64,000 nucleotides of DNA, taken from NCBI RefSeq assembly GCF_003044185.1, contig NZ_PYYB01000001.1, positions 2,686,978 to 2,750,977 of the forward strand, written 5' to 3'. The notes under the pieces were generated by a model. It had not been told where the DNA came from, ran no database searches, and saw only the letters and a program-made list of their open reading frames with translations. This document shows positions 6,334 to 14,680 of the stretch, piece by piece. The DNA is from Paraconexibacter algicola. Its GTDB lineage: Bacteria > Actinomycetota > Thermoleophilia > Solirubrobacterales > Solirubrobacteraceae. The translations under genes and the position numbers were made by a program. Numbering within the stretch: position 1 is the stretch's first letter; every line of letters starts with the position of its first letter.

Positions 6334-7488
6334 ATGACCGCCACCGCGTTCCCCGATCTCTACGACATCCCGCAGGAGCTCCTGGACTTCCGGGATCTCG
6401 TCCGGCAGCTGGCGCAGGAGCAGATCGCGCCGCGCGCGGGGGACATCGATCGCACCGGCGAGTACCCGTGGGACATCCGCAAGCTCCTGGGCGAGCAGGA
6501 CGTCCTGGGCCTCCCGTTCGAGGCCGAGTACGGCGGCACCGGCACCGGCACCCTGATGCTGCAGATGGCGGTCGAGGAGATCGCGAAGGTCTGCGCGTCG
6601 AGCTCGCTCATCCTCATGATCCAGGAGCTCGGCTCGCTCCCGATCACGCTGTTCGGCAACGAGGAGCAGAAGCAGCGCTTCCTGCCGCGGCTGGCCACCG
6701 GCGAGATCTCCCCGGCGTTCGCGCTGTCGGAGCCCGAGGCGGGCTCGGACCCGGCGTCGATGCGCACGTTCGCCAAGCGCGACGGCGACGACTGGATCCT
6801 CAACGGCACGAAGAACTGGATCACCAACGCCGGGATCGCCGACTACTACGTCGTGTTCGCGAAGACCGACCGCGACAACAACCGGATCAGCGCCTTCATC
6901 GTCGAGTCCGACCGCGACGGCGTCGACCCCGGCAAGAAGGAGCACAAGCTCGGCATCAAGGGCTCGCCGACCGGCTCCCCGACCTTCACCGACGTCCGCA
7001 TCCCGGCCGAGAACCTGCTCGGCGTCGAGGGCAAGGGCCTGTCGGTGGCGCTCGGCACGCTGGAGCGCACGCGGCTGGGTGCGGCGGCGCAGGCGGTGGG
7101 GATCGCGCAGGGTGCGACGGACTACGCCAACGAGTACGCGAAGGAGCGGATCGCGTTCGGCAAGCCGATCAACCAGCTGCAGGGCCTGCAGTTCAAGCTC
7201 GCCGACATGGAGACCGGGACCGCCGCGGCGCGTGAGCTGCTCTACAAGGCGTGCACGATGGTCGACCGGGGCGTCCCGGGCGTGGGGAAGTACACGTCGA
7301 TGGCGAAGCTGTTCGCGTCCGACAACGCGATGAAGGTCACGGTCGAGGCGATCCAGGTGCTGGGCGGCTACGGCTACGTGAACGAGTACCCCGTCGAGCG
7401 GATGATGCGAGATGCGAAGATCACGCAGATCTACGAGGGGACCAACGAGATCCAGCGCGTCGTCATCGCCCGCGCGATGGCGAAGTGA
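6334..7488 (+). CDS. Acyl-CoA dehydrogenase
   Basis: This 384-residue flavoenzyme has the full family architecture: an N-terminal helical domain, the beta-domain signature ALSEPEAGSD, the WITNAG substrate region and the C-terminal helical domain. The catalytic base is Glu368 in IYEGTNEIQR. It catalyses FAD-dependent alpha,beta-dehydrogenation of acyl-CoA in beta-oxidation. The position of the Glu is that of short/medium-chain (SCAD-type) enzymes. The start is ATG 6334, because a TACCAT hexamer (6322-6327) ends 6 nt before it. A zinc-protease gene follows after 22 nt and may be cotranscribed. Confidence 0.95.
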   Translation: MTATAFPDLYDIPQELLDFRDLVRQLAQEQIAPRAGDIDRTGEYPWDIRKLLGEQDVLGLPFEAEYGGTGTGTLMLQMAVEEIAKVCASSSLILMIQELGSLPITLFGNEEQKQRFLPRLATGEISPAFALSEPEAGSDPASMRTFAKRDGDDWILNGTKNWITNAGIADYYVVFAKTDRDNNRISAFIVESDRDGVDPGKKEHKLGIKGSPTGSPTFTDVRIPAENLLGVEGKGLSVALGTLERTRLGAAAQAVGIAQGATDYANEYAKERIAFGKPINQLQGLQFKLADMETGTAAARELLYKACTMVDRGVPGVGKYTSMAKLFASDNAMKVTVEAIQVLGGYGYVNEYPVERMMRDAKITQIYEGTNEIQRVVIARAMAK

Positions 7489-7510
7489 CGAGCCAGGGAG
7501 CGAGAGTGCC

Positions 7511-8164
7511 GTGAAGTTCCGCCGACCGTCAGAGCTGTTCCCCGTCCAGCGGACGCTGCTGGCGGCCGGTGTCGCCCTGTCGCTGGGCCTGACCGCGATC
7601 GTGCTGCTCGACGGGTGGCACCCCAACGGGGCGATCCGTCTCGTCGAGGGGATCGCGGTCGTGGTCGTCCTCGCCTCGGCGCTGTTCGGCGCGATGGGCA
7701 TGATCGGCCTGAAGCTCGCCGACTGGCAGGAGCCCGCCGACGAGGACGAGTTCGAGCGGGTCGTCCAGGAGGCCGAGCGGCTCGCCCGCCAGGGCACGGC
7801 CGCCGAGCCCGACGAGTCGGAGTTCCTCGACCTCGACCCGTACGACGACCAGGACTTCGAGGAGCTCGTCCGCGACGCCCTGGACGACCTGCCCGACCTG
7901 CTGCGCCCGCTGCTGGAGAACCACAACGTCGCGGTGGTCATCTCCGACGGTGGCCGGCGCAACAAGGCGTACGGCCTCTACCACGGGGACGGGGCGACCC
8001 GCGACGAGGTCCCGGACCGCATCGTCATCTACCGCGACACGCTGCGCCGGGACTTCGGGCACGACGCGGACCTGCTGCGCGAGCAGGTGACGATCACCGT
8101 CCGGCACGAGCTCGCCCACCACGTCGGCTTCGACGAGCTCGGCGTCCGCGACCTCGGCCTCTAG
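7511..8164 (+). CDS. Membrane-anchored minimal zinc metallopeptidase
   Basis: This 217-residue protein has two N-terminal membrane helices (about residues 16-36 and 45-70). An acidic linker follows, then a C-terminal domain of the zincin_1/DUF1025 type (PF06262) with the zinc motif HELAHH (His199, Glu200, His203) followed by GFDE. These minimal metallopeptidases are typically cytosolic and about 120 residues long, so the membrane anchor here is an addition. The start is GTG 7511, 22 nt after the dehydrogenase stop. The substrate is unknown. Confidence 0.82.
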   Translation: MKFRRPSELFPVQRTLLAAGVALSLGLTAIVLLDGWHPNGAIRLVEGIAVVVVLASALFGAMGMIGLKLADWQEPADEDEFERVVQEAERLARQGTAAEPDESEFLDLDPYDDQDFEELVRDALDDLPDLLRPLLENHNVAVVISDGGRRNKAYGLYHGDGATRDEVPDRIVIYRDTLRRDFGHDADLLREQVTITVRHELAHHVGFDELGVRDLGL

Positions 8165-8192
8165 CGCCCCCCGCCCGCCCGCGCCCGCCGCC

Positions 8193-8242
8193 GTCGAACA
8201 GGGAGTTCTTCGGCCCAGGGGGGAGCAACTCCCTGTTCGGCG
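8193..8242. repeat. Palindromic repeat, left copy
   Basis: The arms GTCGAACAGGGAG and CTCCCTGTTCGGC pair into a long hairpin; pairing extends to 8190-8207 against 8227-8244 with one mismatch. The loop contains TTCGGCC. A second copy with the same arms, spacing and orientation lies at 9119-9168, exactly 926 bases away. Together they bracket the DUF559 gene. Confidence 0.9.
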
Positions 8243-8247
8243 GCCTA

Positions 8248-8267
8248 GAGGGGTCATGGATCCCCTC
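8248..8267 (+). promoter_or_regulatory. Start-codon hairpin of the DUF559 gene
   Basis: GAGGGG (8248-8253) is the only Shine-Dalgarno-like sequence before ATG 8256. It is complementary to CCCCTC (8262-8267) in codons 3-4, so the start codon sits in the loop. This could mask ribosome entry. Confidence 0.5.
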
Positions 8268-9110
8268 AGGGCACGCGCGTCGAGGCAGCTCGGACTCGTC
8301 GCGCGCTGGCAGCTGCTCGCCGACGGCGTCCCGCGGAGCACGATCGACGGCCGGGTGGCGGAGCTGCGGGCGCTGCACGCCGGGGTCTACCTGACCGGTT
8401 GGGCGCCGGCGACCCCCGAGCAGCGCCGGTGGGCGGCGACGCTCACCGCGCCGTGGACGGTGCTCAGCCACGAGTCCGCCTGCCTGCAGTGGCGCCTGCT
8501 CGACCGTCTCGCGGGGCGGGACGTCGTCACGCGGCCGGGCGCGCACGGCGTCGAGCTCCACGACGGCCTGCGTGTCCACTACTCGACGCTGCTGCGCGGC
8601 AACGTCGCGCGGGTCGCGGGCTTCGCGATCACGACGCCGGAGCGGACGATCATCGACTGCTGGCCCCGCCTGGGGGCCTGGCAGCGCCGCACGATGCTGC
8701 GCGAGGCGCTGCGGACGCGCAGGACCACGGTCGCGCGGCTGCAGCTCGTGCTGCGCGGGCACCGGGGCCGCCGGGGCGTCGGGCAGCTGCGGCGGCTGCT
8801 GCGGGAGTGGTCGGCGCTCCCGTTCGATCGCTGCCGGTCCGACGCCGAGGCGTACGCCCTGACCGTGTTCGCCAGGCACGGGATCCCGATCCCGCTCGTC
8901 AACACCCGCGTCGCCGGGGAGGAGGCGGACTTCCACTGGCCGGAGCGCAGGCTGATCCTCGAGCTCGACGGCCCGCAGTGGCACCGCTTCAAGGAGCTCG
9001 ACGCGCGCAAGACCGCGGCCTGGGTCCGTGCGGGTCAGACCGTCCGCCGCCTCCCGACCGACCTCGTCTTCGCCCCCGACGAGGCACCCCTCCTCGCCGC
9101 CGCCAGCTGA
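8256..9110 (+). CDS. Lone AbiEi-like/DUF559 (Vsr-fold) protein
   Basis: This 284-residue protein has two parts. Residues 1-90 are an AbiEi-type winged-helix domain (LGLVARWQLLADGV, then LHAGVYLTG). Residues about 190-284 are a DUF559/Vsr-like PD-(D/E)XK nuclease fold, with Asp225 in EADFHWPE and the pair Glu236/Asp238 in LILELDGPQWH. A nuclease core with its acidic residues intact suggests DNA cleavage or nicking. No AbiEii toxin or methylase is adjacent. Both neighbours are housekeeping genes on unrelated pathways, and the gene is framed by matched palindromes. ATG 8256 has only a masked Shine-Dalgarno, so expression may be low. It could be an antitoxin-like regulator, a nuclease, or part of a selfish element. 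Confidence 0.82.
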   Translation: MDPLRARASRQLGLVARWQLLADGVPRSTIDGRVAELRALHAGVYLTGWAPATPEQRRWAATLTAPWTVLSHESACLQWRLLDRLAGRDVVTRPGAHGVELHDGLRVHYSTLLRGNVARVAGFAITTPERTIIDCWPRLGAWQRRTMLREALRTRRTTVARLQLVLRGHRGRRGVGQLRRLLREWSALPFDRCRSDAEAYALTVFARHGIPIPLVNTRVAGEEADFHWPERRLILELDGPQWHRFKELDARKTAAWVRAGQTVRRLPTDLVFAPDEAPLLAAAS

Positions 9111-9118
9111 CCCCACCC

Positions 9119-9168
9119 GTCGAACAGGGAGATGTTCGGCCTCACGGCGCAGAACTCCCTGTTCGGCG
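9119..9168. repeat. Palindromic repeat, right copy
   Basis: The same arms as the left copy (GTCGAACAGGGAG and CTCCCTGTTCGGC), again with TTCGGCC in the loop and the same total length. Most other loop bases differ, so arm sequence and spacing are what is conserved. It lies 8 bases after the DUF559 stop and 13 bases from the end of the convergent DAHP synthase gene. It could double as a transcription terminator, although no T-run follows. Confidence 0.9.
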
Positions 9169-9181
9169 CGTGGACCGACCG

Positions 9182-14680
<5,499 letters not shown>

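Follow-up and report, generated by a model that had tools for sequence, protein, structure and literature searches.

A DUF559 gene between matched palindromes in Paraconexibacter algicola, and the association of its protein family with REP-like palindromes

The flanked gene and its protein

The window analyzed here, a stretch of 64,000 nucleotides of Paraconexibacter algicola contig NZ_PYYB01000001.1, contains a gene of the DUF559 family that is enclosed by two copies of one imperfect palindrome and lies between two genes of other functions. The features of the locus are as follows.

7412..8164, + strand: zincin-like metallopeptidase gene (Zincin_1), the left neighbor and conserved left flank of the insertion site
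8193..8241, + strand: upstream 49-bp imperfect palindrome, GTC GAACAGGGAG N23 CTCCCTGTTC GGC, one of 9 genomic copies
8256..9110, + strand: AbiEi–Vsr-like (DUF559) fusion gene, 284 aa, between the two 49-bp palindromes
8256..8813, + strand: AbiEi module, residues 1–186 (winged helix and AbiEi C-terminal domain), the predicted palindrome-binding part
8826..9107, + strand: Vsr/EDxHD-type nuclease module, residues 191–284, assigned from fold and profile matches
9119..9167, + strand: downstream 49-bp imperfect palindrome in the same orientation, GTC GAACAGGGAG N23 CTCCCTGTTC GGC
9182..10583, − strand: class II DAHP synthase gene, the right neighbor, convergent with the DUF559 gene

The upstream palindrome ends 14 bp before the ATG of the gene, and the downstream copy is located 8 bp past the stop codon, between convergent gene ends. 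The two are 81% identical over 52 bp. An initial annotation, based on the letters of the window alone, had described two matched palindromes in the same orientation, 926 bp apart from start to start, that flank a single gene, a description that is borne out at 8193–8241 and 9119–9167. It had also read the preservation of arms and length as a sign of selection for structure or recognition. Selection for structure is not supported: no covariation was found in the palindrome arms, whose outer pairs show little variation and whose inner half is often unpaired, and it is the arm sequence that is conserved. The arms are kept as sequence rather than by covariation. The palindrome has no match in Rfam.

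The window protein yielded a structure model with a mean pLDDT of 94.7. Residues 1–186 match the fold of Streptococcus agalactiae AbiEi (6y8q_A, Z 13.0), and the PADLOC AbiEi profile aligns with residues 2–171 (E=3.7e-15); among 34 homologues, AbiEi_4 is present in 19. For residues 191–284, the fold matches are the homing endonuclease I-Bth0305I (3r3p, Z 10.8), NGO0050 (3hrl, 10.4), and Vsr (1cw0, 9.6), and an alignment profile of the homologues retrieves 3hrl with E=5.9e-12. The Pfam DUF559 model scores the window protein at 19.9 bits, slightly under its cut-off of 20.6, and matches 32 of the 34 aligned homologues. Seven residues are invariant in the 34 homologues (E198, D225, E236, D238, H243, D249, and R265). 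Sequence and model together predict an AbiEi antitoxin (1–186) joined to a Vsr/EDxHD nuclease (191–284). There is no AbiEii (DUF1814) nucleotidyltransferase toxin gene beside it, the neighbors being the metallopeptidase and DAHP synthase genes. The earlier assignment of a winged helix and a Vsr-like nuclease with intact acidic residues and no adjacent toxin thus agrees with both sequence and fold.

AbiEi–DUF559 homologues are numerous in the sampled order, with up to ~11 per genome (E<=0.001), most of them 30–40% identical to the window protein; no relatives were found in phage and plasmid records. The other DUF559 paralogues of the window genome are diverged, and of the window unit only the palindrome is multicopy.

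Palindrome families and their DUF559 genes

The two-arm pattern of the window palindrome, with up to 3 mismatches, occurs at 9 places in the 4.74-Mb genome and at none with the reversed control, which rules out chance. All nine copies are 49 bp long with identical spacing, and both 10-bp outer arms are exact in eight of them. When the copies are aligned in a common orientation, 25 of the 49 columns are invariant, and the DNA that flanks them shows no relation beyond ~3 bp outside the 49 bp. Seven copies lie far from any DUF559 gene, of which the genome has five besides that of the window. By mechanical ORF calls, each of these seven is intergenic or at gene ends and adjoins at least one gene 3' end; the genes concerned are unrelated, several copies lie between convergent genes, and the copy at C5:56571 contains the stop codons of two convergent ORFs. 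The family was not found in 7 congeners (up to 3 mismatches) or, as an exact match, in 60 relatives. A search of 84,980 species genomes with the exact two-arm pattern returned 51 scattered matches of varied taxa and spacing and no multi-copy genome, the window's own genome possibly being excluded from that set.

One of the nine copies abuts the 3' end of a gene for a small, SMR transporter-like membrane protein (L054, 5271–5597). Just upstream of this gene, a Guanidine-III riboswitch (Rfam RF01763, 59.9 bits) is found on the minus strand at L054 5617–5680, corresponding to C5 ~166.6 kb in the window genome.

The congener G007 encodes a homologue with 51% identity to the window protein, and its gene likewise adjoins the metallopeptidase gene, on the opposite strand. 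It is flanked by 4 + 3 copies of a different palindrome, CCGTCCATTTCCCCCG-N7-TCGGGGGAAATGGACGG. The G007 genome holds 34 copies of this palindrome at 14 places, with the largest cluster at the DUF559 gene, and 16 other genomes, the window's included, have none. In several clusters the copies repeat in tandem every ~62 or 76 bp, and identical neighbors in some of these arrays point to local amplification. Within the window genome, a third palindrome, GTTCTGGGTGATC...GATCACCCAGAAC, accompanies the DUF559 gene near C1:1,945,800. In the 1.66 Mb scanned, this family comprises 29 copies in 16 clusters, with 28 copies outside called ORFs and none with the reversed control. A fourth palindrome, ACCGCCGTACGAAC...GTTCGTACGGCGGT, with ~6 copies, belongs to the DUF559 gene near C1:1,891,000, and the remaining three DUF559 genes have at most a weak or undispersed hairpin.

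The same three window-genome families, and otherwise only GC-only or low-complexity motifs, emerged from a position-blind scan of the 1.66 Mb for inverted 10-mer pairs dispersed over at least 3 places; the scan took in four short loci fetched for window-family copies, without which the window family counts five places. The palindromes at DUF559 loci are mostly ~43–54 nt long despite their unrelated sequences, and their flanking orientation is mixed, not always inverted. The pairing is one gene to one palindrome family. The idea that palindromes flank other DUF559 genes is thus supported, with a sequence that differs from gene to gene. A further palindrome of 60 bp, composed of nested TGCGACGGGGTCTGACCCCGTCGCA copies, is present in G014 (L205, 10378–10437) with no known adjacent DUF559 gene.

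The association was compared with that of other genes from the same DNA by taking the best local alignment between the 300-bp 5' flank and the 3' flank of each gene. A repeat score of at least 25 was reached by 17 of 38 DUF559 genes and 14 of 207 control genes, and a score of at least 30 by 13 of 38 versus 1 of 207, with the qualification that the counts are not fully independent because genes share genomes. Many distant DUF559 homologues have no 5'/3' repeat. Palindromes scoring at least 14 within ~120 bp upstream of the start codon were found at 9 of 36 DUF559 genes and 4 of 232 controls. Enrichment downstream, taken alone, was weaker than upstream, and in a wider 350-bp downstream flank it was not significant. 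In a stricter count of remote BLAST hits, the flanks of the six DUF559 genes (0–13) could not be told as a group from those of controls (median 1, maximum 16), and the top-ranked control sites in this test were mostly copies of the L060-family palindrome. A permissive BLAST version of the flank-dispersal test was uninformative in this GC-rich genome.

The insertion site in related genomes

An orthologue of the metallopeptidase is present in nearly all family members, mostly as a single copy, and its gene is the conserved left border of the site. In the sequence of G003 and G014, it is followed by ~140 bp and then a thiolase gene, with no such palindrome and no DUF559 gene. These are empty sites, the orthologous loci lacking the unit that the initial annotation had proposed to look for. 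In G007, a palindrome–DUF559–palindrome unit is located exactly between the metallopeptidase and thiolase genes. The order in the window genome is metallopeptidase, DUF559 unit, DAHP synthase, glycosyl hydrolase gene, and thiolase. Comparison of G003 and G014 with G007 and the window therefore indicates that the unit is missing in some relatives and present in two congeners, which differ in its orientation and in its palindrome. A single insertion that was later inverted and given a new palindrome could account for this history, as could two insertions.

In the window, the DUF559 unit is separated from the thiolase gene by a segment (9182–13387) with the DAHP synthase gene and a gene resembling those of family-31 glycosyl hydrolases; this segment is missing from the same place in G007, G003, and G014. 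A DAHP synthase of the window type was found in only 8 of 41 genomes searched, and in G007 its gene is not adjacent to a DUF559 gene. Just upstream of the thiolase gene, window positions 13436–13484 contain two exact direct repeats, GTGGAGTGAGACCGCCG. The thiolase orthologue of G007 (L195) is preceded by the same pair, and that of G014 (L205) by a version that differs at one base; the pair is a conserved operator-like site.

No movement was observed, neither a target-site duplication nor, for a solo palindrome, a clean before/after pair, in a comparison that included no close strain. At L253, the sole collinear site compared, the corresponding stretch of the window genome has no G007 palindrome, and divergence of the intergenic sequence there obscures any ends. 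At another pair of sites, L249 in G007 (C1 ~4.0037 Mb) and L054 5203–5245 in the window genome, each genome has its own unrelated palindrome just 3' of orthologous-looking genes with 75% DNA identity, reflecting either a landing site common to both or the replacement of one palindrome by another in situ.

A model for the gene–palindrome pairs

The arrangement is reminiscent of REP sequences and their RAYT/TnpA-REP proteins (REPtrons, REPINs), in which short, species-specific intergenic palindromes, single or clustered, flank the gene of the cognate protein (PMC2817692, PMC8266576). Palindromes of the window type are likewise short, imperfect, species-specific, and intergenic, mostly at 3' ends, and they appear to co-diverge with the cognate protein. 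A gene flanked by members of a dispersed family is found in the window, in G007, and at two more genes of the window genome. The proposal that a PD-(D/E)XK protein can occupy the place of the transposase in a REP/RAYT-like arrangement is supported by this association at several DUF559 loci. The protein is an AbiEi–Vsr fusion rather than a Y1/HUH transposase; the window family ends in CGTC/GGCG, with no GTAG tag, and the other families have no unpaired tag. The palindromes are also longer (~43–54 nt), their copy numbers are lower (~6 to a few dozen), and their orientation is mixed. No match to the Y1 transposase/RAYT family (PF01797) was found in the window genome, whereas 10 of 14 control genomes have one. 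Hence, the arrangement works like a REP/RAYT pair, yet it lies outside REP/RAYT, having neither a Y1 transposase nor a GTAG tag.

Other known systems match in part. CGTC-tagged REPs, which are listed for five phyla, Actinobacteria not among them, reportedly lack a dedicated transposase and have stems of 8–9 bp and loops of 4–5 nt (Di Nocera et al., PMC3733652). They resemble the palindromes described here as dispersed 3'-end palindromes without a RAYT, and CGTC is by coincidence also found at the end of the window family, but the other DUF559 palindrome families have no CGTC tag. The AbiEi repressor of type IV toxin–antitoxin systems occupies a pair of 23-bp inverted repeats, separated by 3 bp, in its own promoter (PMC7319586). 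Residues 1–186 resemble it in sequence and fold, and the 49 bp of the window palindrome equal the operator size of 23+3+23. In contrast to AbiEi, the window protein has no adjacent AbiEii toxin gene and carries an extra nuclease domain, and its site is dispersed genome-wide. Similarly, residues 191–284 share their fold and conserved acidic and histidine residues with Vsr and the EDxHD homing endonuclease I-Bth0305I; unlike those genes, the window gene lies in no intron or intein, has no methylase partner, is fused to AbiEi, and is flanked by palindromes. No link between DUF559 and palindromic repeats was found in the literature covered, a scope that leaves out preprints and most subscription papers.

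Based on these data, gene and palindromes probably constitute a REP/RAYT-like system in which the AbiEi–nuclease fusion recognizes its own palindromes. In this model, the two halves of a palindrome would be read in duplex form by two AbiEi modules, each monomer taking one ~23-bp half-site in the way that AbiEi occupies its operator. This mode of recognition is proposed mainly because the AbiEi operator and the palindrome are equal in size (49 bp), and it fits arms that are conserved as sequence and lack covariation. If half-sites are recognized in the AbiEi manner, the upstream palindrome probably doubles as the operator of the DUF559 gene. The attached Vsr/EDxHD nuclease, held at the palindrome, would nick or cut there or nearby. 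Strand joining is not expected of a PD-(D/E)XK nuclease, which thus could not insert DNA in the manner of a RAYT; any copying would need break repair. Tandem arrays would arise where such repair copies the palindrome locally. On rare occasions a copy would reach a new intergenic site, and in this way each gene would accumulate its own species-specific family. Binding of the protein to its palindrome is strongly suggested. Cleavage at the palindrome and a causal role of the protein in palindrome spread are suggested less firmly, and the unit as a whole may be selfish and mobile.

Alternatively, the palindromes could have spread by other means, with a homing endonuclease–like gene settling between copies of its target. 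The homing endonuclease I-Bth0305I as the closest fold match of the nuclease domain and the empty sites in G003 and G014 are compatible with homing, and REPs are known targets of other mobile elements (PMC1525189). Homing of the gene, however, predicts the reverse of the one gene copy and many solo palindromes seen in each family, and no alternative palindrome enzyme has emerged, Y1 transposases included, making this explanation unlikely.

It is similarly unlikely that nothing in the system is mobile, the upstream palindrome serving only as an AbiEi-type autoregulatory operator and the others as regulon sites, decoys, or relics. The peak of palindrome enrichment just upstream of the start codon is consistent with an operator, as is the 49-bp pair of 23-bp inverted repeats bound by AbiEi in its own promoter. 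However, an operator function leaves unexplained the downstream copy, the arrays of up to four copies, and the complete replacement of the palindrome between congeners, and control of initiation is improbable for copies at 3' ends or between convergent genes.

A coincidental flanking of the gene by ordinary terminators or host intergenic hairpins is very improbable. The palindromes are strong hairpins located at gene 3' ends, in several cases where two genes converge, and in agreement with one possibility raised at the outset, seven of the nine follow unrelated genes. They do so as one of a few small dispersed families, and because there are only nine copies, with no T-tract and no terminator-like site, the palindrome is not the ordinary terminator of the genome. 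Nine copies in 4.7 Mb and none in congeners also argue against a terminator, as does the placement of two in neighboring gaps (p ~0.016 for 9 copies placed randomly in 4000 gaps) and the recurrence of the pattern with unrelated sequences at many DUF559 genes. Least probable is an integron-like gene cassette, for although two hairpins in the same orientation surround one ORF and their ends, GTCGAAC...GTTCGGC, resemble R boxes, each being one base off the attC core box consensus RYYYAAC/GTTRRRY, these boxes are missing from the other palindrome families of the protein family, and the copies are scattered as single hairpins or as tandem hairpins that enclose no gene.

The REP/RAYT-like reading bears on a wider question. 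REP-like palindromes are common, and some large groups, such as the CGTC REPs, have no known enzyme (PMC3733652). As a tentative extension, AbiEi–Vsr (DUF559) proteins may be an independent, non-transposase class of enzymes that creates and maintains dispersed palindromes. Such a class would be widespread in the sampled order, the palindrome being set by the individual protein, and might supply the enzyme that RAYT-less REP families elsewhere lack. More generally, a protein family annotated so far only as DUF559 or AbiEi antitoxin is now tied one-to-one to REP-like palindromes. If the protein spreads the palindromes, REP-like elements would have a second route of origin with a different chemistry; if its role is limited to binding, the pairs would provide natural, matched proteins and sites for the study of AbiEi-type DNA recognition. 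Either way, a very common uncharacterized protein family gains a testable role.
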